This document shows, piece after piece, positions 16,306-61,223 of a stretch of DNA of 63,111 nucleotides. The stretch is from Paludibacteraceae bacterium (lineage in GTDB: Bacteria > Bacteroidota > Bacteroidia > Bacteroidales > Paludibacteraceae), in NCBI GenBank assembly GCA_017628395.1, contig JAGBZD010000024.1:1-63111 (forward strand). The letters are read 5' to 3'. A program made the translations under genes and the position numbers. The notes under the pieces were generated by a model. The model did no database searches. It was given only the letters and a program-made list of their open reading frames with translations, and was not told the origin of the DNA. Position 1 is the first letter of the stretch. The number at the start of each line of letters is the position of its first letter.

Positions 16306-16406
16306 GGTTAGAGGTTAAAGGTTAGAGGCTAAAGGCACGGAATATGCGGCTTTTCCGCCCCGCCTTTACACCTTACACCCTATACTTTACACCCTACACG
16401 ATACAC
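16306..16406 (+). repeat. Array-palindrome-array element upstream of the SulP gene
   Basis: Left: GGTTAGA-type heptads (16306-16333). Centre: GCGG-ctttt-CCGC hairpin (16346-16358). Right: TTTACAC/CCTACAC-type heptads to 16406. It fills the gap between the pseudouridine synthase stop and the SulP start at 16420, in the same gene-relative orientation as the copies at 18142, 24348 and 61146. The right half, GCCTTTACACC, matches the copies at 14604 and 61146. Confidence 0.8.
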
Positions 16407-16419
16407 TAAAAAAAGAAAT

Positions 16420-18144
16420 ATGAAACTATCATTCAACGATGTTTTTCAACCAAAGCTCTTCCATACGCTGAAGAGCTACACCAAGCAAAAACTGCTGCAA
16501 GACTCTGTGGCAGGACTAATCGTAGGCGTGGTGGCTATCCCATTGGCTATTGCTTTTGGTATAGCCTCTGGCGTTGGACCTGCTGAGGGTCTTATTACCG
16601 CAATCTTGGCGGGATTTATCATCTCTGCTTTCGGTGGTAGCAAAGTGCAGATTGGCGGTCCTACGGGCGCGTTCATTGTTATCATCTATGGCGTGATTCA
16701 GCAACACGGACTCACGGGCTTGCTCATTGCCACGATTATGGCGGGTATTATGCTCATTCTCATGGGCGTGTTCAAACTGGGCAGTATCATCAAGTTTGTG
16801 CCTTATCCTGTGATCGTGGGCTTCACGGCGGGTATTGCGCTGACTATCTTCTCGACCCAGATGAATGACCTATTTGGTATGAATATACAAGGCGTGCCTG
16901 CGGATTTTATCCATAAATGGGTATGCTACGCCGAGCACTGGAAGGATATTAACTGGTGGGCATTCGGCATAGGTATCACCTCGTTGGCGATACTAATTGG
17001 CATGCCTCGTATTAGCAAGAAAATCCCTGGTTCACTGGTGGTTATCATCGTGATGACCCTCGTCACATGGCTGTTGCGTCGTTACGCAGGCGTGGAGAGT
17101 ATAAAGACTATCGGCGACCTCTATACTATCCCTAACGGTATTCCTGCGCCACACTTGCCTTCCTTCGAGTTGGCAGAGGGACAAACCTTCTGGAGCTTGG
17201 TGCAAAGTCTTTTCCCTGCGGCTTTCACCATCGCGATGCTGGGCGCTATTGAGTCCTTGCTCTCTGCTATGGTGGCAGACGGTGTGATAGGCGATCGACA
17301 TAACTCCAATACCGAGCTGATTGCTCAGGGTATGGCGAACGTGGTGGTGCCATTCTTTGGTGGTATCCCTGCTACGGGTGCCATCGCGCGTACCATGACC
17401 AATATCAACAACGGCGGCAAGACCCCTGTGGCAGGTATCGTGCACGCTATTGTACTGATGGCGGTACTGCTGTTCTTTAGTCCATTGGTTGGACTGATAC
17501 CTATGGCATGTTTGGCGGGTATATTGATTATGGTGAGTTACAACATGTCAGAGTGGCGTTCTATCGTATGGCTTGCCAAGAACCCCAAATCGGACTTCTT
17601 GGTGATGCTGGTTACTTTCATTCTGACCGTACTCTTCGACCTTACTATCGCTATTGAGGTGGGGTTGCTGTTGGCGGTTATTCTCTTCATCAAGCGTACC
17701 AACGAGTCCACTACGGTGCAGTCTTTCACCAATGAACTCGACCCAACGCACAACAACGACCTTCGTTTGCATGGTCAGGACTTGGAGACCCTGAAGATTC
17801 CGCCTTTTACAGAGGTATATGAGATTGATGGTCCGTACTTCTTCGGTATTGCCAACAAGTTCGACGACATCAGCCGCCGCACGCATAGTGGCGACCAGAA
17901 AGTGCGTATTATTCGTATGCGTAAGGTGTCGTTTATCGACTCCACGGGTATTCACAACTTGGAGCAACTGCATATGCGCTTGCAGCGCGATGGCATACAG
18001 TTGGTGCTCTCAGGTGTCAATGAGAAAGTATTCAACACGCTGGACAAAGCTGGGTTGGTCAACAAAATCGGTCGCGAGAATGTGCGCAACCATATCAATG
18101 GTGCCCTCTCTCGTGCCGAGGAAATAGTGAAATCAGGTAATTAG
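16420..18144 (+). CDS. SulP-family anion transporter with STAS domain
   Basis: 574 residues. About ten to twelve hydrophobic helices include GVVAIPLAIAFGIASGVGP near residue 37 and GGSKVQIGGPTGAFIVIIYG, the hallmark N-terminal segments of SulP/SLC26 carriers of sulfate, bicarbonate or carboxylates. A C-terminal STAS domain contains SFIDSTGIHNLEQLHMRL. It sits in the inner membrane. Substrate is not predictable. Repeat elements precede and follow the gene. Confidence 0.93.
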   Translation: MKLSFNDVFQPKLFHTLKSYTKQKLLQDSVAGLIVGVVAIPLAIAFGIASGVGPAEGLITAILAGFIISAFGGSKVQIGGPTGAFIVIIYGVIQQHGLTGLLIATIMAGIMLILMGVFKLGSIIKFVPYPVIVGFTAGIALTIFSTQMNDLFGMNIQGVPADFIHKWVCYAEHWKDINWWAFGIGITSLAILIGMPRISKKIPGSLVVIIVMTLVTWLLRRYAGVESIKTIGDLYTIPNGIPAPHLPSFELAEGQTFWSLVQSLFPAAFTIAMLGAIESLLSAMVADGVIGDRHNSNTELIAQGMANVVVPFFGGIPATGAIARTMTNINNGGKTPVAGIVHAIVLMAVLLFFSPLVGLIPMACLAGILIMVSYNMSEWRSIVWLAKNPKSDFLVMLVTFILTVLFDLTIAIEVGLLLAVILFIKRTNESTTVQSFTNELDPTHNNDLRLHGQDLETLKIPPFTEVYEIDGPYFFGIANKFDDISRRTHSGDQKVRIIRMRKVSFIDSTGIHNLEQLHMRLQRDGIQLVLSGVNEKVFNTLDKAGLVNKIGRENVRNHINGALSRAEEIVKSGN

Positions 18145-18234
18145 GCGATAAGGCGAAAGGCAAGAGGCCAGAAAATAGCGGCTTTGCCGCATAATACCAG
18201 CCTCTAACCTTTAACCTCTAACCTTTAACCTCTA
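18142..18234 (+). repeat. Array-palindrome-array element upstream of the alkaline phosphatase gene
   Basis: Left: GGCGATA, AGGCGAA, AGGCAAG, AGGCCAG heptads (18144-18171). Centre: GCGGC-ttt-GCCGC (18178-18190) followed by ATAATACCAGCC. Right: CCTCTAA/CCTTTAA heptads alternating to 18234. The start codon is at 18248. On its gene strand the copy at 24348-24435 is nearly the same sequence. Confidence 0.85.
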
Positions 18235-18247
18235 AAAATAGAAAAAT

Positions 18248-19633
18248 ATGAAACGCGTTCTTCTTTCCGCATGGCTACTGTGTTTGGCAGTAGCGATAAT
18301 GGCTCAAGCCAAGTATGTATTCTTCTTCATTGGCGATGGCATGGGACCTAACCAAGTACTCACCGCCGAGATGTACCAAGCAGCTCTGAAGGGCGAGAAC
18401 GGTCGTGTGCCATTGCTCATGACCCAGTTCCCCTATTCGGGTCAAGCGGCTACTTTCTCCGCTTCGGACGGTATCACCGACTCCGCTGCGGCAGGCACTT
18501 GCCTCGCTTCGGGAAAGAAGACCAACAATGGTATGATTGGTCAAACGCCTGACGGCGCACCTGCTTATAGTGTTGCCTCCGACCTGAAGAAAGAGGGGTG
18601 GGGTATTGGTATCATGTCCACTGTACCTGTGGATCATGCTACGCCTGCTTCGCACTATGCGCATGCCGAGAAACGCAGCAATTATTATCTTATCGGCACG
18701 CACCTCGCGGAGTCGGACTTCGATTTCTTTGGCGGTGGCGGTTTCCAACGCCCTGTGAACAAGGACGATGCTGCGGCGCCTAACCTCTATGACCTCTGCA
18801 AGAAGAATGGTTATACGCTGGTGGGCAGCTACGCCGAGGCGCAAAAGAATCTGAAGAAAAAGAAAATGCTGCTTGTGCCACAAGTTAATCTGGATAATCC
18901 GAACAAAGGTGCAGAAGCATTGCCATATGCCATTGACCAGCAAGAGGGCGACCTCAACTTGGCGCAGATAGTGGATGTGGCTATCCAGCATCTCTCTAAG
19001 CATGACCGTTTCTTTATGATGGCTGAGGGCGGCAAGATTGATTATGCAGGTCACGGCAACGATGGGGCAACGAATATCCAAGAGGTGTTGGATTTCGACC
19101 GTGCGATACAGGTGGCATATCGCTTCTACGAGCAACACCCCGATGAGACGCTTATCGTGGTGACAGCAGACCACGAGACGGGTGGTATGGCACTCGGCAA
19201 TAACCAACCATTGCGTTTGGAGCGCTTGGCGCATCAGAAGTGTTCATCGGACACCCTTTCTGATCGCCTCACGGCTTTGTGTCAGCAATATGCAGAGCAA
19301 CTCACTTGGGAGCAGGTAAAGGCGTTCTTGGCAGCGAATACGGGCTTATTTGGGGAGTTGTCGGTTGCAGCTGAAGAAGAGGCAGTTTTGCAGGAGGCTT
19401 TTAGTAATATGATGCGCCAACAAGAGTCGCTCAAGACGCTCTATGCCGACATCAACGCTTTGGCGGCGAAAGCCAAGGAGTTGGTGAATTACAAAGCGGG
19501 CTTGGGTTGGACCACGCATAGCCATACGGCTACGGCAGTACCTGTCTTCGCTGTGGGTGTAGGTGCAGAGCGCTTCACGGGCTGGATGGACAACAGCGAC
19601 ATCGCTCCACGCATCTATCAAGCTACGAGATAA
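18248..19633 (+). CDS. phoA: Alkaline phosphatase
   Basis: 461 residues with a signal peptide (MKRVLLSAWLLCLAVAIMAQA), so periplasmic. FFIGDGMGPNQV near the N-terminus and ITDSAAAGTCLASGKKTNN (nucleophile Ser79 after Asp78) are the metal and active-site blocks of PhoA-type phosphomonoesterases. VPVDHATPASHYAH, MAEGGKIDYAGHGND and VVTADHETGG give the remaining metal ligands. It releases phosphate from organic monoesters. A phosphate box is not evident; the upstream region is a repeat element. Confidence 0.95.
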   Translation: MKRVLLSAWLLCLAVAIMAQAKYVFFFIGDGMGPNQVLTAEMYQAALKGENGRVPLLMTQFPYSGQAATFSASDGITDSAAAGTCLASGKKTNNGMIGQTPDGAPAYSVASDLKKEGWGIGIMSTVPVDHATPASHYAHAEKRSNYYLIGTHLAESDFDFFGGGGFQRPVNKDDAAAPNLYDLCKKNGYTLVGSYAEAQKNLKKKKMLLVPQVNLDNPNKGAEALPYAIDQQEGDLNLAQIVDVAIQHLSKHDRFFMMAEGGKIDYAGHGNDGATNIQEVLDFDRAIQVAYRFYEQHPDETLIVVTADHETGGMALGNNQPLRLERLAHQKCSSDTLSDRLTALCQQYAEQLTWEQVKAFLAANTGLFGELSVAAEEEAVLQEAFSNMMRQQESLKTLYADINALAAKAKELVNYKAGLGWTTHSHTATAVPVFAVGVGAERFTGWMDNSDIAPRIYQATR

Positions 19634-19669
19634 GGAAGGTAGTTGCCGTGCAGTTGTGCAGTTCATGGC

Positions 19670-19795
19670 TTAGCCATTTATTTCTACTGGGTATGAAAAT
19701 TCTATCTTATTACGCAGTTTTGGATTATGCGCAACTTCGATGAGTTTGTTGGTTAATAATTCAACAAGCTCTTGCTCTTTAGGAGTTAAATACAA
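19670..19795 (-). CDS. Possible small protein with TTG start
   Basis: An open frame of 41 codons reads MYLTPKEQELVELLTNKLIEVAHNPKLRNKIEFSYPVEING if TTG at 19795 is used. The composition is natural (amphipathic helix, then strand) and the gene starts 8 bases after the stop of the 117-residue gene upstream. It could equally be the tail of a decayed gene. No family recognised. Confidence 0.35.
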   Translation of the reverse strand: MYLTPKEQELVELLTNKLIEVAHNPKLRNKIEFSYPVEING

Positions 19796-19803
19796 TAGTT
19801 GTA

Positions 19804-20157
19804 TTACTCATATCTGCGCAGTTTTATCTCCTCGTCGGAGCAGAGTTTATAAACACGATTCTGGATATAGTTGGAGAGTTCTTGCACATTGCGTTTGTTT
19901 TGTGGAATGGCACATAGGTTAATGAATACCTTCGCCTTGCTCTCAATGATAACATCTGTGGTTTGCGTGCCTTTGGCTACCACGCGAATGCGGATGTCTT
20001 GTCCTGTAGGAATAAGACGCCAGCCATGCGATGCGGTGAGGACAAAATTGTCCTCATCGTACCGCACACATTTAAAGTCATTCGTTGTCTGCAAGACATG
20101 TTTCACACAAGCAAACACACACCTTGCAGGAAGGGGAAAGGTCAGAGTGGTTTTCAT
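19804..20157 (-). CDS. Conserved-looking protein of unknown function, 117 residues
   Basis: The sequence starts MKTTLTFPLPARCVFACVKHVLQ and continues with alternating strands (FVLTASHGWRLIPTGQDIRIRVVAK, TTDVIIESKAKVFINLCAIPQN) and a C-terminal helix. This is the layout of a small alpha-beta protein; similar hypothetical proteins with HGW motifs are known to me in Bacteroidales, with no function. It has no signal peptide. Its start overlaps the stop of the upstream 62-residue gene by 4 bases (ATGA). Confidence 0.7.
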   Translation of the reverse strand: MKTTLTFPLPARCVFACVKHVLQTTNDFKCVRYDEDNFVLTASHGWRLIPTGQDIRIRVVAKGTQTTDVIIESKAKVFINLCAIPQNKRNVQELSNYIQNRVYKLCSDEEIKLRRYE

Positions 20158-20342
20158 TCTTCCTCTTTCTTCTTGTTTGAAAATAAAGGTATAATTAACA
20201 ACACTCCTACTATCTCACAAATGAATCGTAAGAACTGGTGATTTTTCCACCAGAGTGAATAGTTATCCCAGCCCATTACTATGCACATTGTAATTAATGC
20301 AAATGCATATACTGCTAGTAAGATAATACAACTCTTTTTCAT
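20154..20342 (-). CDS. Small membrane protein, 62 residues
   Basis: Two hydrophobic helices (KSCIILLAVYAFALITMCIV and ICEIVGVLLIIPLF) joined by a polar loop rich in Trp and Asn, ending in KKKEEE. The 4-base overlap with the following gene argues that it is translated. Function unknown. Confidence 0.6.
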   Translation of the reverse strand: MKKSCIILLAVYAFALITMCIVMGWDNYSLWWKNHQFLRFICEIVGVLLIIPLFSNKKKEEE

Positions 20343-20360
20343 AATCGAAGGTATATTACA

Positions 20361-20720
20361 TTATCTGTATTTTACATTTACTGTAATTGATTTATCTTCT
20401 CCTATTGTTGTGTCAATTTGAAATTTATCTGCTGGGAGGTTTAATTTAAAACCTTTAATATGATTAATCTTAATCTGCATGTTATCTACACCTTGTTCAT
20501 GCCCTTGTTCAATAAGCTTTTCTACTGCTTGTTGTTGAATCTTTAGTTCTTCTTGTTGTGAGATTTTGATTTTATCGTATAACTTGATTGCAAGATATAA
20601 CAATGGAATAGAAGTGAATGCTACAAGTGAGAGGGTTTTACTAATACCTTCTTTCGTTGTTAAATCAATAACTAGTGATGCCAGTTCTTTTGATGTTTTG
20701 TTTGATAATTGGTTGTTCAT
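20361..20720 (-). CDS. Small single-pass membrane protein, 119 residues
   Basis: An amphipathic N-terminal stretch, one transmembrane helix (TLSLVAFTSIPLLYLAIKLY), then a Gln/Glu-rich probable coiled coil (KISQQEELKIQQQAVEKLIEQ) and a beta-rich tail. It lies 18 bases upstream of the 62-residue membrane protein, so three or four genes (20720 down to 19670) probably form one unit. No family recognised. The region is more AT-rich than its neighbours. Confidence 0.6.
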   Translation of the reverse strand: MNNQLSNKTSKELASLVIDLTTKEGISKTLSLVAFTSIPLLYLAIKLYDKIKISQQEELKIQQQAVEKLIEQGHEQGVDNMQIKINHIKGFKLNLPADKFQIDTTIGEDKSITVNVKYR

Positions 20721-21241
20721 GATGAGTAATTAATTTAGTTAGTTAATTAATATTATTGTTGTAGAGGTTTTTATTAAGGCTTCTTTCGTTGCCGTGTCGT
20801 TGCCGTGTTTGTCTCGAAACCGCCAAGGAAATTGAAAGATTTTTATATAAAAAGCGCAGAGTAGTATCTTCCTTCGTCACAAACAAGGCTCTGGTAAACC
20901 CTACAGAAACAAAGAGAAATAATGCTCCACGCTGTATATGATTTCTCAAAAAATTCATATACACGGAAACGCTTACTCTTTGCCCTTCTGTTGATGAAAT
21001 GTACCAGATTTCTGTTTGTTGGGTCAAAAGTAATTACGCTTTCTGTTTTGGATTTCTCCCCAAAACGCTACAAAATTACTACATTTTTTTCAAAGAGCAA
21101 AATTTTAGGAGCATTATTTCTCGTTTTCGCTACAAAATTAGTTAAAAATTATGAAAATGCCAATGAATCGTACCTAAAAAGGATAAACAAGCATAATCTT
21201 GTATCAAACCAAAAGACTTTGATACAAAATTGGCAGAGGGA
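20721..21241. other. Non-coding stretch, no gene seen
   Basis: I find no convincing gene here. It begins with an AT-rich near-palindrome (TAATTAATTTAGTTAGTTAATTAATA, 20729-20752 region), includes GTTGCCGTGT written twice (about 20788-20809), and ends next to the promoter of the 21286 gene. Confidence 0.5.
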
Positions 21242-21273
21242 TTTGCATAAACACTAATTTTTGTGTACCTTTG
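21242..21273 (+). promoter_or_regulatory. Promoter abutting the start codon of the 436-residue protein
   Basis: TTTG (21242-21245), 20 bases, TACCTTTG (21266-21273). The first in-frame ATG is at 21286, only 12 bases after the box, so the mRNA leader would be about ten bases or shorter. Confidence 0.75.
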
Positions 21274-21285
21274 CGCGAAATTTCT

Positions 21286-22596
21286 ATGACAAACCGCAAA
21301 GACATATTGCAACAATTGGTCAAACACTGCTTTTTTGCTGCCAACAACACCCGATTGGCAAGCCTCTTGGGGCAAAAAGGCAGAATGAACATCACACGCC
21401 TAATAGACGGTACATTGGGCGACAGAGCCGTTAATCACCTTTGGGAGGAAATTAGCAGACTGTTTGGTGTGCCCGAGGAGATATTACCCCATTTGCCTAC
21501 CGTTTGGGATTTGTGCAATCAACTGAAAAATACGCCTGAAGCGTTACGATTGGATTCACCTCCAGAGGAACACACCCAACCCCAAAGCATAGACAACGAC
21601 ACATGGCAGCAGATACAAGCGCTCTGGGGACAGGATAGGATGTTGTATTACATCTTGTTGGGCTTGCTCTATGCCAAATGCAACCATATCAATCCCTATC
21701 AGCAAAAAGGCATGCGGGCAACTGCGCAAGTAATCAACGAACTCAATACCTATTTGCACCAACTTTATCCCCAGCAAGTCAATGCCAACGATGCTGCGCA
21801 ACAGTTAGTGCAAACCATTGAGAAAGAGGATGTTGATAGCTGGTGGTGGATGGGATACTTCGGTGGCATCGTGTTGCGCTTGTACTATGAGCCTACATAC
21901 GCAGAGGATATTTGTCTGAACGGCACAACCCCCATGCCATTTATGTGGTGGCAATGGTGGCGCGATGCGAGTAGCAATAAGGCAGGAGATACATTGTGGT
22001 TTTGGCTGAAGAACGGCACAACGGATGCTATCTATGATATTATGCGCATAGAAGACCAACAAAATGTAATGCAGGCAGAACATTTTATGCTCCTCTTTAA
22101 TCAGCACCAGTCCGTTCGGTTGTTACATACCCAGGAGCGAAAGACTACCGGCATTAATCTCTGGTGGCAATTAGAGGAGATTAATGGAAAACATGTTTTG
22201 ACTTTCACGCCCGAAGAGGAACATGCATTGAATAGACTATTGCCCAAGCAACTCGTTACGCTACACGAACAGGACGATCCCCAATTAGTAAATCGTGCGC
22301 GTCAGATGAGTGACGAAATGAAGCGTGAAACAGAACTGCGAAGGTATAGCGAGGAGGGATTGGTACCAACAACAGAATACCAAATTGTCGATATAGAATG
22401 TAGTCGCCGAATGTTGCGTGTCTTGTATCGTCATCATGGCAAAGCGGTGCAAATCGCCAAATTTGCGCTGGTAGATTATCCTGCGCTACGGGCTGTAACG
22501 GTACACTCGCAGGTGGAACTGCTGTTGAGTACCTCTGATGGCAGACTCTTTGCCTTGTGGAATGAAGTCGGCGTGTTGCTGGCGCTGAATGAGTAG
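21286..22596 (+). CDS. Unrecognised cytoplasmic protein, 436 residues
   Basis: I do not recognise the family. The start MTNRKDILQQLVKHCFFAANN is chosen because the promoter -7 box covers the alternative TTG at 21271. The N-terminal third is helical and polar; the middle is rich in Trp (SWWWMGYFGG, FMWWQWWRD, LWFWLKNG, INLWWQLEE); the C-terminus is strand-rich. No signal peptide or transmembrane helix. The following open frame looks like a decayed mobile-element gene, which fits a position in a variable region. Confidence 0.65.
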   Translation: MTNRKDILQQLVKHCFFAANNTRLASLLGQKGRMNITRLIDGTLGDRAVNHLWEEISRLFGVPEEILPHLPTVWDLCNQLKNTPEALRLDSPPEEHTQPQSIDNDTWQQIQALWGQDRMLYYILLGLLYAKCNHINPYQQKGMRATAQVINELNTYLHQLYPQQVNANDAAQQLVQTIEKEDVDSWWWMGYFGGIVLRLYYEPTYAEDICLNGTTPMPFMWWQWWRDASSNKAGDTLWFWLKNGTTDAIYDIMRIEDQQNVMQAEHFMLLFNQHQSVRLLHTQERKTTGINLWWQLEEINGKHVLTFTPEEEHALNRLLPKQLVTLHEQDDPQLVNRARQMSDEMKRETELRRYSEEGLVPTTEYQIVDIECSRRMLRVLYRHHGKAVQIAKFALVDYPALRAVTVHSQVELLLSTSDGRLFALWNEVGVLLALNE

Positions 22597-22602
22597 GGAG
22601 AT

Positions 22603-22854
22603 GTGGGAGAGGGATTCGAGGGACTAACCTCGCTTCGCTCAGCCACCTCGAATGCCTTGTTCAGCCACGGGCGTCTTATCTCGTTTACGGACTCGAACGA
22701 TTGCTTCACCAAGCAGGAGGCAGTGAAGCAAGCCGAAGTCCTTGGAGTGGCATTGAGCACAATGGAAAGATGGATAACAAAATCCGTACAAACAGCTCAC
22801 ATAGAAAGACTTGCAACAGGTTTGTACAGAAAGAAACCCTCATGTATTGCGTAG
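22603..22854 (+). pseudogene. Remnant resembling the C-terminus of a DUF3987/VirE-type protein
   Basis: The last ~50 of 83 residues (FTKQEAVKQAEVLGVALSTMERWITKS... ERLATGLYRKK) look like the winged-helix tail of DUF3987/primase-helicase-like proteins, where a helix-turn-helix is followed by G.YRK. The first ~30 residues are atypical and no upstream domain is present, so I read it as a truncated remnant. An independent small protein is possible but less likely. Confidence 0.4.
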
Positions 22855-22860
22855 TGAGGG

Positions 22861-22920
22861 GAATGAGGGAGTGAGGGAAATACACCCCTCACTTCCCTCA
22901 CTCCCTCACTTCCCTCATTC
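22861..22920. repeat. GAGGG/CCCTC inverted repeat
   Basis: GAATGAGGGAGTGAGGGA (22861-22878) pairs with TCCCTCAC (22902-22909) and TCCCTCATTC (22911-22920) through a 1-base bulge, leaving a 23-base loop. Both arms are short-period G-rich or C-rich arrays. Confidence 0.7.
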
Positions 22921-22997
22921 TATATTTTAATAGAATAGATGCTATAGATATGATAGGATATAGATGTGCTACGGAAGGGATAGTGATGTCTTCTTAT

Positions 22998-23030
22998 GAA
23001 CCCGTCAAGAACCCGTTATGAACCCGTAAT
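22998..23030. repeat. 11-bp-period GAACCCGT array
   Basis: GAACCCGTCAA, GAACCCGTTAT, GAACCCGTAAT in tandem. The remaining intergenic sequence up to 23264 holds irregular CAATA/CAACA-rich DNA and no gene that I can support. Confidence 0.75.
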
Positions 23031-23264
23031 TGATCGCTGATTGGTGGGGGAGTTTTGACTAAAGACAATATCAATAATGGGGAGACAATTATCAACAATA
23101 TAGACAATGAGAATCAACAATAAAAACAATGCAAGGCATATCCACTACCAAAATTATAAACAATTATCACTGCTGTCCACTAAAAAATAAAGAACATTAA
23201 CGATGATCAAGGGAATGCCTTTGCTGCGTGCGTGAAGCAAAAAATATGCAAATTTCTGCCCCTA

Positions 23265-24338
23265 TTATCTGCTTACGCGTAGATAGAGCACTACGCCGAT
23301 GGCAAGGAAGATAAAGTTCGGCAACCATACACTCATGAATGGAGACATAACACCATTCACCGAGAATGTGGTACTCACCGTAGAGAATAGGATATACAAA
23401 GCACTGAGTGTCAATCCAAAACCAAGATTTTTGCCCATACCCCCTCTCACCTTTTTCGAACTCATAGTCACACCAAGCAGGGTCATAATAAACGCTCCAA
23501 TCGGACTTGCCCAGCGTTTCCACCATTCCGTCTCAAAGGCTTGGACATTGCCAGAACCACGCTTACGCTGTGTGTCTATATAACTCCTTAATTCAGGATT
23601 GGGCATCATTTGTGCATTTTCGGCAGTATAGAACAGTTCTTTTGGAAGCACAGGAATTATGGTGTCCAAGCGATTGCCGCGCGTGAGCGTTTCGCGCATG
23701 CCATCAAACTCTCGGCGTATATATTTGTCGAAATGCCAATTGTAAGCAGAGTCATAATGAATCCGATCGGCTGTAATACGCATCGTGAGTTTCTTTCCGT
23801 CAAAGTGTTCCAATGATGATCGATACCCCATCTTCGTGCGCTTCTGAAAACTCTCAATATACAAAATCGTACCTGGCTCTACCTCCATCTGTATGTTGCG
23901 TGCATTCTCACGACTGAAGTGCTGAATGTACTTGTCTTGGAAAGTGAGCATTTTTTCGGATGCTGGTGGTATCACATAACCAGTCATCCAAAATGAGAAT
24001 GCAAACAGCAACAATGCACTCACAAAATAGGGACACATCAAGCGGTGGTAACTCACACCACTGGCTAAAATAGCAATAATCTCACTATCGCCTGCCAATT
24101 TGGAAGTGAAGAAAATAACAGAAATGAATATGAATAGTGGACTAAACATATTCATATAATAAGGTATGAAATTCAAGTAATAGTCAAAGATGATTTCTTT
24201 GACTGATACTTGATTCTCAAAAAAGTTATCTAATTTTTCGGTCAAATCGAAGATGACAGCGATACTCATAATCAGCACAATCGAGAAGATGAATGTGCCA
24301 AGAAACTTGCCTATTATGTATTTGTCGAGTCGCTTCAT
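23265..24338 (-). CDS. lptG: LptF/LptG-family permease (YjgP/YjgQ)
   Basis: 357 residues. MKRLDKYIIGKFLGTFIFSIVLIMSIAVIFDL is the usual start of this family; three N-terminal helices, a ~150-residue periplasmic beta domain (SRENARNIQMEVEPGTILYIES...), and three C-terminal helices follow. These permeases work with LptB to extract lipopolysaccharide from the inner membrane. Whether it is the F or the G paralogue is not certain. It lies downstream of tgt, a common order in this phylum. Confidence 0.88.
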   Translation of the reverse strand: MKRLDKYIIGKFLGTFIFSIVLIMSIAVIFDLTEKLDNFFENQVSVKEIIFDYYLNFIPYYMNMFSPLFIFISVIFFTSKLAGDSEIIAILASGVSYHRLMCPYFVSALLLFAFSFWMTGYVIPPASEKMLTFQDKYIQHFSRENARNIQMEVEPGTILYIESFQKRTKMGYRSSLEHFDGKKLTMRITADRIHYDSAYNWHFDKYIRREFDGMRETLTRGNRLDTIIPVLPKELFYTAENAQMMPNPELRSYIDTQRKRGSGNVQAFETEWWKRWASPIGAFIMTLLGVTMSSKKVRGGMGKNLGFGLTLSALYILFSTVSTTFSVNGVMSPFMSVWLPNFIFLAIGVVLYLRVSR

Positions 24339-24347
24339 TTTATTTTA

Positions 24348-24435
24348 GGTTAGAGGTTAAGGTTAGAGGCTGGTATTATGCGGAAAAGCCGCTATTTCTT
24401 GCCTCTCGCCTCATAGCCTAATCGCCTAATCACCT
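24348..24435 (-). repeat. Array-palindrome-array element upstream of lptG
   Basis: Read on the minus strand: GGCGATTA-type octads, then a GCGG-cuttt-CCGC type hairpin (24380-24392) with ATAATACCAGCC, then CCTCTAACC heptads, 9 bases before the lptG ATG. The core equals that of the element at 18142-18234 at nearly every position. Confidence 0.85.
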
Positions 24436-24440
24436 ATAAA

Positions 24441-25574
24441 CTACATTCTCTGCATGAGGCGTGGGGTGATGTCATCCTTCCATGCCTTGAAGTCGCCAGC
24501 AAGGATATGCTTGCGCGCTTCGCCCACAAGCCAGAGGTAGAACGCCAAGTTGTGGATACTAAGAATCTCCAAACCGAGCATCTCTTGTGCATGGATGAGG
24601 TGGCGTACATAGGCGCGAGTATAGTGGTGGTCCACAAAACTGGTGCCACAAGGGTCGAGTTCGGTAAAGTCGTCCTCCCACTTCTTGTTGCGCAAGTTCA
24701 TTACGCCGTTCTGCGTAAAGATCATGCCGTTGCGACCATTGCGTGTGGGCATTACGCAGTCGAACATATCCACACCGCGTTCGATACCTTCGAGAATATT
24801 CCATGGCGTACCCACGCCCATGAGGTAGCGAGGCTTATTTTCAGGCAGAATATCATTGACCACCTCAATCATGGCGTACATATCTTCGGTGGGTTCGCCC
24901 ACAGCCAGTCCGCCGATGGCGTAGCCGTCGCGGTCAAGGTCGCGCAAGCGTTTAGCTGCCTCTTGTCGCAGTTCGGGATATACACAGCCCTGCACGATAG
25001 GGAAGAGGTGCTGCTTGTAGCCATATAGGTCGGGGGTGTTGTCAAAGCGTTGGATACAACGGTCGAGCCAACGATGAGTGCGCTCCATGGACTTTTGGGC
25101 GTATTGTCGGTCAGCGGTACCTGGGCAACACTCGTCGAATGCCATAATGATGTCGGCACCAATCTCTCGCTGTATGTCCATCACATTCTCGGGGGTGAAC
25201 ATCAGTTTTCGTCCATCGATATGCGAGGAGAACTGTACGCCCTCTTCGGTCATCTTGCGTATGTCGGTTAGTGAGAATACTTGAAATCCTCCCGAGTCAG
25301 TCAATATAGGTCGTGTCCATCCTTCAAAGCGGTGCAGTCCGCCTGCTTTGTGTAGGATGTCGGTACCGGGACGGAGGTAGAGATGGTAGGTGTTGCCAAG
25401 TATGATTTGTGCGTTGATGTCCTCTTCGAGAATGGTTCGTTGCACACCTTTGACGGTACCTACTGTTCCTACGGGCATAAAAATAGGGGTTTGAATATTC
25501 CCGTGGTCGGTATGCACTACGCCTGCGCGTGCACATGTGTGTGCATCGGTATGTATGAGGTCAAAAAAAGCCAT
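24441..25574 (-). CDS. tgt: Queuine tRNA-ribosyltransferase
   Basis: 377 residues from [31 protein letters not shown] and AFDECCPG hold the active-site aspartates; PIVQGCVYPELR and GGLAVGEP are further family blocks. It swaps guanine-34 for a queuosine precursor in tRNAs with GUN anticodons. The CxCxxC zinc motif of the proteobacterial enzyme is absent (DPCGTSFVDHHYTRAY in that place), which I believe is normal for Bacteroidetes. The ATG overlaps the panD stop as TAATG, which fixes the start and suggests coupled translation. Confidence 0.95.
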   Translation of the reverse strand: MAFFDLIHTDAHTCARAGVVHTDHGNIQTPIFMPVGTVGTVKGVQRTILEEDINAQIILGNTYHLYLRPGTDILHKAGGLHRFEGWTRPILTDSGGFQVFSLTDIRKMTEEGVQFSSHIDGRKLMFTPENVMDIQREIGADIIMAFDECCPGTADRQYAQKSMERTHRWLDRCIQRFDNTPDLYGYKQHLFPIVQGCVYPELRQEAAKRLRDLDRDGYAIGGLAVGEPTEDMYAMIEVVNDILPENKPRYLMGVGTPWNILEGIERGVDMFDCVMPTRNGRNGMIFTQNGVMNLRNKKWEDDFTELDPCGTSFVDHHYTRAYVRHLIHAQEMLGLEILSIHNLAFYLWLVGEARKHILAGDFKAWKDDITPRLMQRM

Positions 25575-26141: not shown

Positions 26142-26226
26142 GGAGAGATGGCAGAGTGGTCGATTGCGGCGGTCTTGAAAACCGTTGAGCTGAGAGGCTC
26201 CGGGGGTTCGAATCCCTCTCTCTCCG
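26142..26226 (+). tRNA. tRNA-Ser (anticodon UGA)
   Basis: The acceptor stem GGAGAGA pairs with TCTCTCC, the anticodon loop CTTGAAA reads UCA codons, a long variable arm (TTGAGCTGAGAGGCTCC region) marks a serine tRNA, and the T arm is GGGGG-TTCGAAT-CCCTC. The discriminator base is G. The 3' CCA is not encoded (CAA follows). It is 85 bases long and has its own promoter and terminator. Confidence 0.95.
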
Positions 26227-31131: not shown

Positions 31132-31139
31132 ATCCTTGC

Positions 31140-31178
31140 CTTTACACTCTACACTTTACACTTTACACACTACACCCT
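31140..31178 (-). repeat. TTTACAC heptad array between the LolC/E gene and the lipoprotein gene
   Basis: TTTACACTC, TACACTT, TACACTT, TACACAC and TACACCC at about 7-base steps. It spans the LolC/E-type stop codon and ends near the lipoprotein start. Here the array reads in the opposite gene-relative orientation from the copies before the plus-strand genes. Confidence 0.7.
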
Positions 31179-48651: not shown

Positions 48652-50772
48652 ATGGATTTATCCATTCGAAATATCGAATACTGTAAGGGTGTCGGCGCTA
48701 AGCGTGCCGACATTCTTCGTAAAGAGCTGGGTGTGAAGTCGGCGCTCGATATGCTGTACCAGTTTCCGTACAAGTATATTGACCGCAGTCGCTTCTATTT
48801 TATCCATGAGATTGAGGACGACGACACCTATGTGCAGCTCATCGGTCATATCACCGAGTGGCACACCATTGGTATTGGCAATGCCCAGCGTCTATCCGCT
48901 ACCTTTACCGACGGACGGCACACCATCGAACTCGTTTGGTTCAAGGGTGTGAAGTATGTCAAACTGGAGCGCAATGTGCAGTATCTGCTTTTTGGCAAAC
49001 CATCGCGCTTCAATCATCAGTACAACTTCGTTCATCCCGAGCTCACGCCGATGAGTAAGGTGCAACCTGAACTCATGCAGGGGCTCGAACCGCACTACAA
49101 CACCACCGAACCTATGAAACGCGCAGGGCTCAATTCCAAAGCCCTCCGCACCATCATCGCACATCTCATACCCGAACTCCAACAGCAGGGTATGGTAGAT
49201 ACGCTTGGCATGGATCTGGTGCAACGCTACCACCTCATGCGCCTGAGCGAAGCGCTCTGCAATATCCATTTCCCTAAGGATACCCCTACCATGCAGAAGG
49301 CGCGCGAACGGCTCAAGTTCGAAGAACTCTTCTATATCCAATTGCAGATTCTCAGGCAGATGAAACGCCGCGAACAAAATGTCGGCTTCTCTATGCCTAT
49401 TGTGGGCAAGTCTTTCCACTCCTTCTACCAGAACTGCCTGCCCTTCCCACTCACCAATGCGCAGAAACGCGTGGTGCGCGAGATTCAGACCGATATCAAG
49501 TCTGGCAAACAGATGAACCGCCTTTTGCAGGGCGATGTGGGTAGTGGCAAAACGATCGTTGCCCTACTCACAGCCCTACTCGCTGTGGATAATGGCTACC
49601 AAGCCTGTATCATGGCTCCCACTGAGATTCTTGCTAACCAGCATTACGAAACCATCCAACAACTCCTCTCACCTCTCACCTCCTCGCCTCATCACCTCAT
49701 CGCCTCATCGCCTAAAATCGCTCTCCTCACGGGTTCCACGACTGCCAAGCAACGCCAGCCTATTCATGAGCAACTGCGCTCGGGTGAGATCAATATCCTC
49801 ATCGGCACGCATGCCTTGCTTGAGGACACCGTGCAGTTTGCCAACCTCGGACTATGTATCATTGACGAGCAACACCGTTTTGGTGTGGCGCAGCGCGCCA
49901 AACTATGGAATAAGAACACCCAACCGCCACATATCCTTGTGATGACGGCAACGCCTATCCCCCGCACTTTGGCGATGACGGTCTATGGCGATTTGCAGGT
50001 GAGTATCATCGACGAACTCCCTCCAGGGCGTAAACCTGTGCATACGCTTCACTATTCCATTCAACGCCGAGCATCTATCAATCAGTTCATCGCGCAGCAG
50101 ATTGATATGGGGCGTCAGGTTTATGTGGTCTATCCGCTCATCAATGAGAACGAGAAACTCGACCTCCATGACCTCACCAATGGCTACAACCAACTCTGCG
50201 AAACTTTCCCCGAGTACCGTATTTCCATGGTACACGGACAGATGAAGGCGAAGGACAAGGACGAGCAGATGCAGCGTTTTGTCGCTGGAGAAACGCAGAT
50301 TCTGGTGGCGACTACGGTCATTGAGGTGGGAGTGAATGTGCCTAACGCCAGCGTGATGATTATTGAGAATGCCGAGCGTTTTGGTCTCAGCCAATTGCAC
50401 CAATTGCGTGGCCGAGTAGGGCGCGGTGCGGAGCAGAGCTATTGTATATTGCTCACGCGCGTGGAGATGAGCAAGGAGACGCGCCAGCGCATGGATATTA
50501 TGGTGGCGACCAACGATGGCTTTCGTATTGCGGAGGCGGATTTGCAACTGCGTGGTCCGGGCGACTTAGAGGGTACGCAGCAGTCGGGCTTGCCGTTTGA
50601 GTTGCATATTGCCAGTTTGAGTACCGATGGCCAGTTGCTGGAGGTGGCGCGCCAAGCAGCGATGGAGGTTCTGGATGCAGACCCATTGCTCGAACAATCC
50701 CACAACCGTATATACAAACAGCGACTCGACTATCTTCGAATCGCTGCTGGTAATTGGGGAGAAATCTCTTAG
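48652..50772 (+). CDS. recG: ATP-dependent DNA helicase RecG
   Basis: 706 residues. It remodels stalled forks and Holliday junctions. An N-terminal OB-fold wedge domain is followed by helicase motifs: Walker A GDVGSGKT at 294-301, IIDEQHRFG (DEQH box), VMTATPIPRTLAMT, and ATTVIEVGVNVPNASVMIIENAERFGLSQLHQLRGRVGRG. Between motifs I and II residues about 340-354 (LTSSPHHLIASSPK) are encoded by a short-period repeat and are not part of the conserved helicase core. Confidence 0.96.
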   Translation: MDLSIRNIEYCKGVGAKRADILRKELGVKSALDMLYQFPYKYIDRSRFYFIHEIEDDDTYVQLIGHITEWHTIGIGNAQRLSATFTDGRHTIELVWFKGVKYVKLERNVQYLLFGKPSRFNHQYNFVHPELTPMSKVQPELMQGLEPHYNTTEPMKRAGLNSKALRTIIAHLIPELQQQGMVDTLGMDLVQRYHLMRLSEALCNIHFPKDTPTMQKARERLKFEELFYIQLQILRQMKRREQNVGFSMPIVGKSFHSFYQNCLPFPLTNAQKRVVREIQTDIKSGKQMNRLLQGDVGSGKTIVALLTALLAVDNGYQACIMAPTEILANQHYETIQQLLSPLTSSPHHLIASSPKIALLTGSTTAKQRQPIHEQLRSGEINILIGTHALLEDTVQFANLGLCIIDEQHRFGVAQRAKLWNKNTQPPHILVMTATPIPRTLAMTVYGDLQVSIIDELPPGRKPVHTLHYSIQRRASINQFIAQQIDMGRQVYVVYPLINENEKLDLHDLTNGYNQLCETFPEYRISMVHGQMKAKDKDEQMQRFVAGETQILVATTVIEVGVNVPNASVMIIENAERFGLSQLHQLRGRVGRGAEQSYCILLTRVEMSKETRQRMDIMVATNDGFRIAEADLQLRGPGDLEGTQQSGLPFELHIASLSTDGQLLEVARQAAMEVLDADPLLEQSHNRIYKQRLDYLRIAAGNWGEIS
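49672..49713 (+). repeat. CGCCTCAT array inside recG
   Basis: ACCTCTC, ACCTCCT, CGCCTCAT, CACCTCAT, CGCCTCAT, CGCCTAAA in 7-8-base steps, in frame, between helicase motifs Ia and II. It is in the opposite orientation (relative to the gene) from the arrays in aroA, aroC and ileS. Confidence 0.8.
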
Positions 50773-50777
50773 AAATT

Positions 50778-50832
50778 ACGCACTATTCACGCACAATAGA
50801 CGGACAATACACGCACAATAAGCGCACAATTC
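50778..50832. repeat. 11-bp-period ACGCACAATA array
   Basis: ACGCACTATTC, ACGCACAATAG, ACGGACAATAC, ACGCACAATAA, GCGCACAATTC in tandem between the convergent recG and outer-membrane protein genes. Confidence 0.85.
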
Positions 50833-53809: not shown

Positions 53810-54787
53810 TCAAAAATCATGCCAATCTGCCAATACCATTGCTGCCATGGCTTCCACCACGGGCACAGCCCGCACCGCCACGCACGCGTCATGCCTTCCC
53901 GCCGCCTCTCGCCTTAGTGTCTTGCGATTCGACGCCGTGGGCTTAAACACGCAGCGGAATACGATAGGCGTGCTGTCGCTTATTCCACCTGCTATACCGC
54001 CAGAGATTAGTCTTGTGTTCTCCGAGAGATACATCTCGCTGCCTTTCTTGCTCACGCCCTCAAAGCCCGAACCGTACTCAAATCCTTTGCAGGCATTGAT
54101 ACTCATCATGGCGAAGGCCAAGTGCGCTTGTAGTTTATCGAAGATGGGTTCGCCCACGCCTATGGGCATACCTGTGATGCGACACTCCACGATGCCACCA
54201 ATACTGTCGCCATCTTGTTGAATAGCAGCGATGTATGCATCAAACCGTTCGGCGTTGGTCTCTTCGCCCACTTGCACCAGTTTGGCTTCGATGTGTATGT
54301 TTTTTTCGGCAAGTATTTGTTTGGCTATGCTGCCTGCCACTACGCGTGCGGCTGTTTCTCTGGCAGAAGCGCGTCCGCCACCACGGTGGTCGCGTATGCC
54401 ATATTTCTCTTGATAAACGCGATCGGCGTGTCCTATTCGATACGAGTGGCGCAGCCATTCATAATCTTCGGGTCGTGCGTCGCTATTGCGAATGATGAAG
54501 GCAATAGGTGTACCCAGTGTCACACCGTCCATCACTCCGCTCAGCCATTCCACCTCATCCGTCTCACGCAACGCCCGAGGTGATACCCCACCATTCACCT
54601 CTTCGCCTTTCGCCTTTCGCCTCTCGCCTTTAACCTTTCCTCGCCCTGCCCTGCGGTCAAGCTCGCTCTGTATGAGCGTAAGGTCGATATGCAAACCCGC
54701 AGGCACGCCATCCAGCACGCCACCGATAGCCCGACCGTGTGACTCTCCGAAGGAGGTGAAAGTGAAATGTTCGCCGAAAGTATTCAT
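53810..54787 (-). CDS. aroC: Chorismate synthase
   Basis: 325 residues. It makes chorismate from EPSP. FGESHGRAIGGVLDGVPAG, YRIGHADRVYQEKYGIRDHRGGGRASARETAARVVAG and RAVPVVEAMAAMVLADW are the three signature regions. The conserved RRxGxS...RxETDEVE segment is interrupted at residues 47-61 by a Lys/Glu-rich stretch (GKVKGERRKAKGEEVNGG) encoded by a heptad array. The start is supported by a promoter 20 bases upstream, divergent from the PCMD gene. Confidence 0.95.
   Translation of the reverse strand: MNTFGEHFTFTSFGESHGRAIGGVLDGVPAGLHIDLTLIQSELDRRAGRGKVKGERRKAKGEEVNGGVSPRALRETDEVEWLSGVMDGVTLGTPIAFIIRNSDARPEDYEWLRHSYRIGHADRVYQEKYGIRDHRGGGRASARETAARVVAGSIAKQILAEKNIHIEAKLVQVGEETNAERFDAYIAAIQQDGDSIGGIVECRITGMPIGVGEPIFDKLQAHLAFAMMSINACKGFEYGSGFEGVSKKGSEMYLSENTRLISGGIAGGISDSTPIVFRCVFKPTASNRKTLRREAAGRHDACVAVRAVPVVEAMAAMVLADWHDF
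54604..54645 (-). repeat. CGCCTTT heptad array inside aroC
   Basis: CGCCTTT, CGCCTTT, CGCCTCT, CGCCTTT, AACCTTT, CCTCGCC on the plus strand at exact 7-base steps, in frame. Confidence 0.85.
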
Positions 54788-55842: not shown

Positions 55843-55872
55843 TTTATCGTTTGAAGTTTAAAGACTAAAAAT

Positions 55873-56589: not shown

Positions 56590-56596
56590 GGAATAA

Positions 56597-57816: not shown

Positions 57817-58122
57817 ATGGAAGAACAAAAACTCAACATCAACCTCTCTCCAGAGATGGCAGAAGGTACTTACAGCAATTTGGCAATCGTAGCACACTCA
57901 TCATCGGAGTTTGTAGTGGATTTCGTGCGCATGATGCCAGGTCAAAAGAGTGCTAATGTACAATCACGCGTGATTATGACCCCAGAGAATACCAAGAAAC
58001 TCCTCTTCGCTCTCCAAGAGAATGTAGCGAAATACGAGAAGCAATTTGGTACGATCAAACTCAACGGCACACCAGCCCCAGGTAGTACTATTCCGATGTC
58101 CTTCGGCGGCGGACAAGCATAA
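57817..58122 (+). CDS. DUF3467 protein
   Basis: 101 residues. LNINLSPEMAEGTYSNLAIVAHSSSEFVVDFVRMMPG followed by VQSRVIMTPENTKKLLFALQENVAKYEKQFG is the DUF3467 family, small cytoplasmic proteins of unknown role. The leader before it has TCTAAC/TCTAATA-like repeats. Confidence 0.88.
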   Translation: MEEQKLNINLSPEMAEGTYSNLAIVAHSSSEFVVDFVRMMPGQKSANVQSRVIMTPENTKKLLFALQENVAKYEKQFGTIKLNGTPAPGSTIPMSFGGGQA

Positions 58123-58127
58123 CCATT

Positions 58128-58210
58128 AACCCGACCGCTCTGCGACCGCTACAGCGCAGCGATCTACAGGGCTTTGCCCGATCTACAAGCGAGCGTAACG
58201 AGCGATCTAA
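58128..58210 (+). repeat. Palindrome-rich leader before the nucleoside phosphorylase gene
   Basis: GACCGCT occurs twice, GCGATCTA/CGATCTA three times, a GGGC-ttt-GCCC hairpin lies at about 58168-58178, and GCGAGCGTAACGAGCG forms an imperfect palindrome. It ends 13 bases before the ATG. It resembles the other array-plus-palindrome leaders in layout but not in sequence. Confidence 0.6.
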
Positions 58211-58223
58211 AAACTTCTAACCT

Positions 58224-59102: not shown

Positions 59103-59106
59103 TAAC

Positions 59107-59142
59107 GACCTTAATGTCCTTAATGACCTTAAAGTCCTTAAA
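59107..59142 (+). repeat. 9-bp-period array before the dipeptidyl peptidase III gene
   Basis: GACCTTAAT, GTCCTTAAT, GACCTTAAA, GTCCTTAAA, 9 bases before the ATG. Confidence 0.8.
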
Positions 59143-59151
59143 CAACAGACA

Positions 59152-61128
59152 ATGAAGAAATTAGCAATCCTTAGCCTTGCGCTCGTAGCACTCAGCGCAT
59201 GCTGCAAACAAGAACAAACATTCGACTACACCGTGGACAAATTCTATGACCTCGAGATTCTGCGCTATCAAGTGCCAGAGTTTGACTCTCTGAGTCTGCA
59301 ACAAAAGACCCTCGTTTATCACCTCACCGAAGCAGCCTTGCACGGTCGTGATATTCTCTTCGACCAAAACGGTCGCTACAACCTGCGTATCCGCCGTGCC
59401 CTCGAAGCACTTTACACCCAATACAAGGGCGATAAGAAGAGCGAGGAGTTCGTGAACTTCGAGAAATACCTCAAGCGCGTATGGTTTGCCAACGGCATTC
59501 ACCACCACTACGCATCCGACAAGTTCCAACCTGAGTTTTCTCAAGAGTGGTTCGTGAACGCATGCGCAGAAGCAGGTGTTACCTACGACGAGGCTATCCT
59601 GCCTGTTATCTTTGACCCAACCGTGATGCCTAAGAGCCTTAGCCTTGAGGGCGAAGATCTTCTCCTTGCATCTGCCAACAACTACTACGAGGGTGTGACC
59701 CAAGCAGAGGCAGAAGCATACTACGAGAAGCATAAAGACACTTCTGCTGAGCCATTGTGGATTGGTCTCAATAGCAAACTCGTAAAAGAGAACGGCAAAG
59801 TCGTTGAGCGTGTATATAAAGTAGGCGGTATGTACAGTGCCGCTCTCGAAAAAGTAGTTGAGCATCTCGAGAAAGCGCTCCCATTTGCAGAGAACGAGCA
59901 ACAACGCCTTGTCATCGAGAAAATGATTGAGTTCAACAAGACTGGCGACTTGAAGGCTTTCAACGAGTACTGCATCGCATGGGTGAAAGACCTTGATAGC
60001 CGTGTGGATTATGTAAACGGTTTCACCGAGACATATGCTGATCCGCTGGGTATTACAGGTACTTGGGAGTCACTCGTGAACTTCAAAGATATGCGTGCTA
60101 CCCACCGTTGCCAAACCATCTCCGATAACGCACAATGGTTCGAGGACAACTCTCCAACCGATAAGAAATACAAGAAAGAGGAAGTCAAAGGCGTGAGCGC
60201 AAAGGTAATCACCGCAGCTATCCTAGCGGGTGACTGCTACCCTGCAACGCCTATCGGTATCAACTTGCCTAACGCCAACTGGATTCGCAAGGACTATGGT
60301 TCTAAGTCTGTAACCATCGACAATATCACCCACGCCTACAACGAGGCAGCCAAAGGCAATGGCTTCAACGAGGAGTTTATGGTTAGCCCAGAGGTCATCG
60401 CTATGTACGAGAAAGCAGGTGCTTGCGGCGACTTGCACACCGACCTCCACGAGTGCGTAGGTCACGGTTCTGGTAAATTGATGCCAGGCGTTAGCAAAGA
60501 TGCCCTCAAGGAGCATGCTTCAACCATCGAAGAGGCGCGTGCTGACTTGTTGGGTCTCTACTATATGGCTGACCCTAAGTTGGTAGAACTCGGCTTGTTA
60601 GAGGACGAAGAGGCATACAAGGGATTCTACTACCAACAGATGATGAATGGTCTGATGACCCAACTCGTGCGCATTGAGCCAGGCAAAGACATCGAAGAAT
60701 CACACATGCGCAATCGTCAATTGATTGCTCTCTGGGTATTCAAGAACGCTAAGAACAACGAGGTAGAGATGATTGAGCGCGATGGCAAGCACTACCTCCA
60801 AATCAATGATTACGAGGGTATTCGTCACCTCTATGGCGAGTTGCTTCGTGAGGTACAACGCATCACTTCTGAGGGCGATTACCCTGCTGCAAAAGCGATG
60901 GTAGAGGAGTATGCGGTAAAAGTAGATCAAGACTTGCACAAAGAGATATTGGAGCGTTACGAGAAGCTCAATCTTGCTCCTTATAAAGGTTTTGTGAACC
61001 CTGTTTATACTGCACATTACGATGCAGAAGGCAATATCACGGATGTCACGCTCGACTACACCGAGGGTTATATCGAGCAGCACCTTCGCTATTCCCGCGA
61101 CTATTCCTTCTTGCCTGACATTAATTAA
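59152..61128 (+). CDS. Dipeptidyl peptidase III (M49 family), lipoprotein
   Basis: 658 residues. The M49 zinc motif HECVGHGSGK starts at His433 (HExxxH), and EEARAD at 460-465 provides the third ligand. It removes dipeptides from N-termini of short peptides. MKKLAILSLALVALSAC gives a lipobox (Cys17), so the enzyme is exported, unlike the cytosolic eukaryotic form. With dcp in this window it suggests a periplasmic peptide-trimming capacity. Confidence 0.94.
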   Translation: MKKLAILSLALVALSACCKQEQTFDYTVDKFYDLEILRYQVPEFDSLSLQQKTLVYHLTEAALHGRDILFDQNGRYNLRIRRALEALYTQYKGDKKSEEFVNFEKYLKRVWFANGIHHHYASDKFQPEFSQEWFVNACAEAGVTYDEAILPVIFDPTVMPKSLSLEGEDLLLASANNYYEGVTQAEAEAYYEKHKDTSAEPLWIGLNSKLVKENGKVVERVYKVGGMYSAALEKVVEHLEKALPFAENEQQRLVIEKMIEFNKTGDLKAFNEYCIAWVKDLDSRVDYVNGFTETYADPLGITGTWESLVNFKDMRATHRCQTISDNAQWFEDNSPTDKKYKKEEVKGVSAKVITAAILAGDCYPATPIGINLPNANWIRKDYGSKSVTIDNITHAYNEAAKGNGFNEEFMVSPEVIAMYEKAGACGDLHTDLHECVGHGSGKLMPGVSKDALKEHASTIEEARADLLGLYYMADPKLVELGLLEDEEAYKGFYYQQMMNGLMTQLVRIEPGKDIEESHMRNRQLIALWVFKNAKNNEVEMIERDGKHYLQINDYEGIRHLYGELLREVQRITSEGDYPAAKAMVEEYAVKVDQDLHKEILERYEKLNLAPYKGFVNPVYTAHYDAEGNITDVTLDYTEGYIEQHLRYSRDYSFLPDIN

Positions 61129-61145
61129 TGTAGTTGAAAGTTCAT

Positions 61146-61223
61146 GGTTTAAAGTTTAAAGGCAGGAAGTAGCGGCAAAGCCGCATTACCCAGCCTTTAC
61201 ACCATACACTTTACACCATACAC
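61146..61223 (+). repeat. Array-palindrome-array element upstream of aroA
   Basis: Left: GGTTTAAAGTTTAAAGG. Centre: GGAAGTA, then GCGGC-aaa-GCCGC (61172-61184), then ATTACCCAGCC. Right: TTTACACCATACAC-type heptads to 61223, 11 bases before the aroA ATG. The core matches those at 18142 and 24348. Confidence 0.85.

Follow-up and report, generated by a model that had tools for sequence, protein, structure and literature searches.

Two kinds of bacterial heptamer repeat come closest to the elements described here. The heptameric G-rich repeats of Xanthomonas (GGGAATC) and Nostoc (GGGGA(C/T)T) form degenerate heptad arrays that are chiefly intergenic and lie between aligned open reading frames (ORFs); the G-rich strand is sense just after stop codons and antisense just before start codons, and many arrays form convergent (inverted) pairs (Rehm et al. 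2015, PMC4692102). In the sections of that report drawn on here, array length and sequence differ among relatives, no transposase link is given, the function is unknown, the gene neighbourhood is more stable than in controls, and the single or paired type is usually retained. TAACTGA heptamer direct repeats are found in Beggiatoaceae, Cyanobacteria and a few Bacteroidetes; the cited part of that account places the arrays immediately before start codons, with an irregular distribution and a proposed regulatory role (MacGregor 2015, PMC4679880). The stretch analyzed here, called the window, is 63,111 nt of contig JAGBZD010000024.1 from a Paludibacteraceae bacterium (assembly GCA_017628395.1). 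It has four array-hairpin-array elements, all of them quasi-palindromes. On balance, these probably represent a non-autonomous intercistronic repeat family, specific to one clade and with elements of approximately 90–110 bp, that is mutational or recombinational in nature and is tolerated in spacers between co-directional genes.

As far as the cited sections extend, the Xanthomonas and Nostoc repeats are the closest published case, and the family here is of the same kind, set apart by its core, words, arm rule, and gain and loss. Degenerate heptad tandem arrays, mostly intergenic, are present here too, and the elements show the same strand rule at stops and starts as well as inverted pairs. 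However, a conserved GC hairpin core links the arms, there are several word classes, the two arms share no word, and presence at a junction often changes between close species. The units GGGAATC and GGGGA(C/T)T are absent, as are runs of three or more G that could fold into a quadruplex; G tracts are pairs at most or are absent. The TAACTGA repeats also place heptamer arrays upstream of start codons, but are described as direct repeats of one fixed unit without a hairpin core, whereas the arms here are inverted around a core and have other units. Rfam 15 at gathering score reveals no match to an element in the window, the sole match being a tRNA at positions 26142–26226. The earlier note on this DNA did not recognize a named family. 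No name was found in Rfam 15 or in literature searches, but a close relative in kind has been published, as outlined above.

Read on the sense strand, a typical element follows the order stop codon, purine-rich heptads, a core of 31–37 nt with a GCGGC/GCCGC-like hairpin, pyrimidine-rich heptads, an A-rich stretch and a start codon. Element 1 (plus strand) has a left purine-rich array of GGTTAGA/GGTTAAA units at 16306–16333, after the pseudouridine synthase stop codon at 16293–16295. Its core (16334–16364) contains the hairpin GCGG-CTTTT-CCGC, and its right pyrimidine-rich array with ACAC words (16365–16406) is 13 bases from the SulP ATG at 16420. Element 2 (plus strand) begins with the SulP stop codon itself, as TAG (18142–18144) forms the first three bases of the left array (18142–18165). 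The core at 18166–18202 has the hairpin GCGGC-TTT-GCCGC, and the right array of CCTCTAA/CCTTTAA units (18203–18234) leaves 13 bases to the ATG of the alkaline phosphatase gene at 18248. Element 3 belongs to a minus-strand gene pair; its left array (24404–24438) follows the tgt stop at 24443–24441, the core is at 24368–24403, and the right array (24348–24367) is 9 bases from the lptG-type ATG at 24338. Element 4 (plus strand) has GTTTAAA units on the left (61131–61160) after the peptidase M49 stop at 61126–61128, a core with the hairpin GCGGC-AAA-GCCGC (61161–61195), and ACACCAT/ACACTTT units on the right (61196–61223), 11 bases before the aroA ATG at 61235. Some left arrays mix 7- and 8-base units. 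Pfam assigns the four downstream genes to sulfate permease, alkaline phosphatase, LptF/LptG and EPSP synthase, in agreement with the names SulP, phoA, lptG and aroA given before.

The sequence confirms the four copies that had been reported near 16306, 18142, 24348 and 61146, all placed 8–14 bases before an ATG in the same orientation to the gene; the distances measured are 13, 13, 9 and 11 bases. For the last copy the right end stands, but the left arm begins near 61131. A common core had also been proposed. Three cores are alike and are of a long type, GGC..GAAATA-GCGGC-NNN-GCCGC-AT....CCAGCC with variation, but the right-side sequence ATAATACCAGCC is found in only two of the four (18166–18202, and 24368–24403 on the minus strand). 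The core at 61161–61195 carries ATTACCCAGCC, and that at 16334–16364 is a second, shorter type without a ATAATACCAGCC-like right half. Each element starts at the upstream same-strand stop codon, or within about 10 bases of it, and occupies the whole stop-to-start gap of two same-strand genes; placement before an ATG is therefore true but only half of the story. By eye and uncounted, TAA or TAG is frequent in the seven-base units of sense-strand left arrays, e.g., at 16306–16333 and 18142–18165, so that only a few units suffice to put stop codons into two or more frames behind the upstream gene.

The genome that contains the window (G000) is a draft of 2.41 Mb in 129 contigs and is 81% complete. 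All genomes compared are drafts, and gene calls are ORF-based. Covariance models were used as the genome-wide marker because the bare hairpin pattern did no better than its reversed control. Model R1 was built from five cores of G000 and model R2 from 39 cores; R2 was built from R1 matches, and the scores of those rows are thus partly by construction. R1 has matches at E values of 3e-8 and 5e-8 in two congeners that were absent from model building. At least 11 elements with arrays are present in G000, a count that leaves out two weaker rows (C82 and C41); those outside the window are at C22:7525, C47:7529, C93:7160, C126:7739, C121:717, C117:12757 and C117:69878. The earlier note had named as refuting a whole-genome search that found only these four copies, or random positions and orientations. 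Neither outcome occurred, as copies exceed four and the positions are non-random. The R1 matches in congeners speak for a family beyond chance, as do the lag-7 arrays described below; on the other side, the bare hairpin pattern has 8 matches in the own genome and its reversed control has 9, and the full first-type core, with ≤ 3 mismatches allowed, is found in only two places of the genome. The signal of the family resides in the extended core together with the arrays, and not in the bare hairpin.

The proposed search of relatives with a covariance model shows R2 matches at E ≤ 0.01 in 14 of 178 genomes of the genus, all in one clade, with 164 genomes without a match. Copy number is patchy, from 2 to 24 rows per carrier: 24 in G081, 15 in G118, 9 each in G180 and G025, 8 in G000, 7 each in G084 and G103, 6 in G014, 5 in G111, 3 in G116, and 2 each in G085, G119, G120 and G183; some of these rows are a single place matched on both strands. 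A tree of lptG from 30 of these 178 genomes places all 14 carriers in one group of 16 with support 100/100. This group also includes G101 and G102; the branch of G085 within it is long. At least one short-core element is present in G101 too, at E 0.25 and short of the cut-off. As the cut-off of E ≤ 0.01 misses short cores, the 14 carriers are a lower bound. R1 finds nothing convincing in 24 genomes from other families of the order. Weak R1 matches in G023, G027 and G035 (E 0.05–0.07) were set aside; R2 has no match at E ≤ 0.01 in any of these genomes, and the place in G027 is without arrays. A pattern scan of 84,980 species genomes shows 25 stretches, 21 of them in Bacteroidales (12 titled Paludibacteraceae, from animal gut). 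The other four, from Chromobacterium, two Paenibacillus and a Cyclobacteriaceae, have no arrays and were dismissed. In these searches the family is found in one group of uncultured gut bacteria.

Elements from part of the R2 rows were catalogued by junction. After removal of 3 non-elements and 5 repeats of the same core and flank, the 98 rows represent 90 distinct elements, among the rows catalogued, at 52 junctions. A same-strand stop and start are both nearby at 34 of the 52 junctions, one of them at 14 and neither at 4. About 80% of all junctions are co-directional anyway (235/295 in a sample of the own genome), and spacer type alone is therefore a modest bias, weaker than the one in long-core orientation. 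The CAT..CCAGCC side is toward the downstream gene at 30 of 34 long-core junctions, reversed at 2 and unclear at 2. Short cores are forward at 10 junctions and reverse at 8, so that the constant orientation proposed earlier holds for the long core and not for the short one. Measured from the stop, the core lies at a median of 28 nt (48 values), and the start lies at a median of 38.5 nt from the core (40 values). A few copies face a promoter-like stretch and not a start codon. As the tie to the upstream stop is as strong as that to the start, the former reading of the elements as mRNA leaders is too narrow.

Within an mRNA, the element would be an interrupted stem-loop between two cistrons. It has to be considered that it is a functional intercistronic RNA element, in which the stem-loop protects or processes the mRNA of the upstream gene, or sets reinitiation at the downstream gene, with the pyrimidine-rich array and the A-rich end as a leader. 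The nearly fixed orientation of the long core relative to transcription and the narrow distances to stop and start favour this, as do paired changes in the inner stem. Pairing in the inner stem is 98.0% over 83 distinct rows, where three of its five pairs have changed on both sides. The whole structure has five double-changed pairs compared with 2.2 in shuffles (2 of 500 shuffles reach five), in a test that includes a few places matched on both strands. An earlier set of 39 rows displays a weak excess, 3 compared with 1.8 (47 of 500 shuffles), and for the 83 rows percentage paired, double-change cells and the covariation score are not above shuffles. Preservation of the inner stem via paired changes in a few copies is thus modestly supported. 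Pairing of the arms is unsupported, with no covariation above shuffles, and the idea that the arms are matched for the best fold is likewise unsupported: arm-swapped elements fold slightly better on average (-33.0 kcal/mol) than real ones (-30.8 kcal/mol). These properties of the arms, the occurrence of short cores in both orientations, and the absence of elements at the same housekeeping junctions in close relatives argue against an RNA element. Since the long core holds one orientation, an RNA role keeps some probability, but as an account of the family it is possible rather than likely.

The two arms of an element differ in a regular way. On the purine strand, the array unit is a four-letter word plus a variable triplet, and the words classed are GGCG, GGTT, GTTT, GTGT, GTTG, GGCT, GGTG and GGCA. 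None of the 73 elements with both arms classed has the same word in left and right arm, compared with 13.6 by permutation; with one element per junction the values are 0 of 29–33 compared with 6.1–6.8 (p 0.0004–0.0008). The words were picked after inspection of the data, but a word-free test is independent of them. In this test the longest run common to both arms averages 6.4–6.5 compared with 7.65 (p 0.0004–0.0008), and a shared run of 14 is present at 0 of 52 junctions compared with 3.4–3.7 expected (p 0.012–0.020). Same-word array pairs exist outside cored elements (3/33 in G000, 1/12 in G014 and 7/20 in G101), although these are rows of a loose scan and many are not real arrays. The arms avoid perfect complementarity, as they never have the same word and real elements fold slightly worse than arm-swapped ones. 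This arm rule is new here.

SbcCD, a cutter of perfect palindromes, was considered as the force against perfect arms and is disfavoured, since SbcD is above the curated cut-off, which may not suit this phylum, in only one of the 16 clade genomes (G084); 12 have weak matches only and 3 have none. Replication slippage, cleavage of double-stranded RNA or another cause may then underlie the rule. If the weak or missing SbcD matches are real, the clade may tolerate palindromes unusually well.

Comparison of orthologous junctions reveals filled and empty sites. Between tgt and lptG an element is present in G000, G081, G118 and G180, and the stop-start gap is only 2–6 nt in G101, G116, G120, G183, G111 and G014. 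Short spacers without arrays are found there in G102 and G084, a short array without a core in G025 and G103, and other hairpin arrays in G119 and G085. The aroA junction has an element in G000, G085, G111, G120, G116 and G014, a stop/start overlap in G081, G101, G118, G102 and G180, and other repeats in G103, G119, G084, G123 and G183. At several further junctions G101 has a spacer of 12–54 nt where relatives carry an element. By eye, the former spacer appears replaced and not split, inverted arms are present, and no target duplication recurs at the junctions compared. ATCAAT-like letters on both sides of the aroA element were taken for a target duplication and dropped, as none is found at other junctions. 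Other hairpin and array families (AAAACTTTT, CTAAACAGTA and GATCG types) take the same junctions in relatives, at L108, L120, L129, L132, L134, L135 and L139 before lptG or aroA in congeners; one such locus, L024, is in G000.

Turnover is faster in the arms than in the core. Across 80 orthologous pairs the core averages an identity of 0.84, the left arm 0.68 and the right arm 0.75, and core identity is above that of the left arm in 56 pairs and above that of the right arm in 49. Near-identical aroA elements are carried by G111 and G120, two genomes that the lptG tree does not join as sisters; this suggests exchange of whole alleles. In G118, two elements flanking one gene are 98.9% identical over 92 bp, and the identity does not extend past the element; in G180 the orthologous pair has 95.6% identity over 91 bp. 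By eye, each pair shares variants that are absent from the pair of the other genome, which points to copying or conversion within a genome.

REP, BIME and REPIN elements are short, palindrome-containing and dispersed in intergenic DNA, and REPs are tied to Y1 transposases. BOX elements of pneumococcus are modular, with repeated middle parts and stem-forming ends, and are located near genes. By general description only, BOX differs from the family here in sequence and module order; REP, BIME and REPIN differ in that the elements here have heptad arms. Movement in trans by a transposase, as a miniature REP/REPIN-like or MITE-like mobile element, would fit the dispersed copies with a common palindromic core, the empty sites and the near-identical pair within one genome. 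It is improbable, however, given the spacers that look replaced and the lack, by eye, of a consistent target duplication noted above. Among the 178 genus genomes, 20 have Y1 transposase domains (PF01797), and none of these is one of the 14 carriers, which are drafts 62–99% complete; no search for other transposase families was made.

Heptad arrays are also found without a core, and some are inside ORFs, which fits a mutational process. Lag-7 arrays number 38 in 410 kb of the own genome compared with 0 in a codon-block shuffle; a looser setting gives 48 intergenic arrays and 22 inside ORFs in G000. Single R arrays in G000 are nearer the stop in 11 of 14 cases and single Y arrays nearer the start in 7 of 8. 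In G101 this strand rule is not clear (R 9/17 nearer the stop, Y 3/13 nearer the start). The own genome is rich in arrays of 7, 11 and 14 bases, and so are congeners without a core at E ≤ 0.01. It could be proposed, then, that the elements are plain simple-sequence repeats and that the common hairpin has no role of its own, and the lack of enrichment of the bare hairpin would agree with this. There is little likelihood of such an origin, however, as an extended core is common to 52 junctions, its stem is kept by paired changes, and it is better conserved than the arms.

Two half-elements are present in the window. One retains only the right half (14597–14631, plus strand, before an ATG at 14641). 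It was noted before as a half-copy at 14604, and that description is borne out: a terminator-like hairpin with a T run, read from the sequence, replaces the core at 14569–14594 (plus strand) after ribosomal protein L31. The terminator scan reports only the minus-strand counterpart of this hairpin. The other half-element consists of a left array and GGC edge (31133–31175, minus strand) between the stop (31172–31170) of one minus-strand ORF and the start (31131) of the next. The substitution at 14569–14594 and the position of a GC-rich hairpin shortly after the upstream stop are features expected if the core were an intrinsic transcription terminator. Yet the four window copies have no T tract after the hairpin on the gene strand, and a scan of 14400–25000, a range with three of these copies, flags just one of them, and that on the opposite strand (18190–18178). 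A terminator is very improbable. Membership of an Rfam family, an intrinsic terminator and a link to a Y1 transposase were each tested and rejected.

Under the favoured interpretation of a tolerated intercistronic repeat family, heptads would arise and change through replication slippage and through recombination or template switching between similar arrays, and whole elements would now and then be copied between junctions. Their persistence mainly between cistrons may reflect that a repeat there disrupts no coding sequence and no promoter. Perfect complementarity of the arms would be selected against, so that the arms remain mismatched, and any effect on mRNA stability, polarity or reinitiation is probably secondary. 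In favour of this interpretation are the empty, filled and differently filled versions of junctions, the patchy copy number, the near-identical pairs in G118 and G180, the lower identity of the arms, the arm rule, the carriers' lack of Y1 transposases and the heptad arrays without a core. Several results weigh against it. The long-core orientation at 30 of 34 junctions and the 98.0% pairing of the inner stem both exceed what would be required of a neutral repeat. Some orthologous junctions conserve the arms well (e.g., 0.96 at one pair), the copying step is supported by just one duplicated pair, in two species, and the apparent scarcity of SbcD weakens one reason for the arm rule.

Four heptad arrays in the window are inside long ORFs, at 49665–49713 (recG), 61359–61396 (aroA), and 54590–54642 and 28588–28667 (two minus-strand ORFs), which indicates that arrays enter coding sequence in frame. 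The aroA gene has further tandem repeats at 62029–62191, after approximately residue 258; AroA matches in congeners are interrupted between about residues 258 and 323, and the region is a fast-changing insert within an essential-type enzyme. Arrays with an 11-base unit form a second repeat class, with 18 in 410 kb of the own genome compared with 0 in the shuffle, 6 of the 18 between convergent genes, compared with 31 of 295 junctions that are convergent. They are found at 8039–8154, 22991–23035, 50773–50832, 62552–62595 and 62663–62706, and also at L154, L156, L160, L164 and L171.

A broader proposal, which is tentative and rather unlikely, is that the elements belong to a self-renewing class of intercistronic quasi-palindromes, in which the arms are rewritten yet kept apart and the junctions are docking sites where families replace each other between sister species. 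If true, a break would recur in the stem roughly every heptad, and some array-writing process so far unknown, by template switching or by an enzyme, would be implied, together with a force against perfect arms. As far as the cited report describes it, the layout of the Xanthomonas and Nostoc repeats recurs in a distant phylum, here together with a conserved hairpin, clear-cut empty sites and a rule of arm mismatch. How inverted heptad arrays at gene junctions originate and turn over, and what effect they have in RNA, can be tested in this family.

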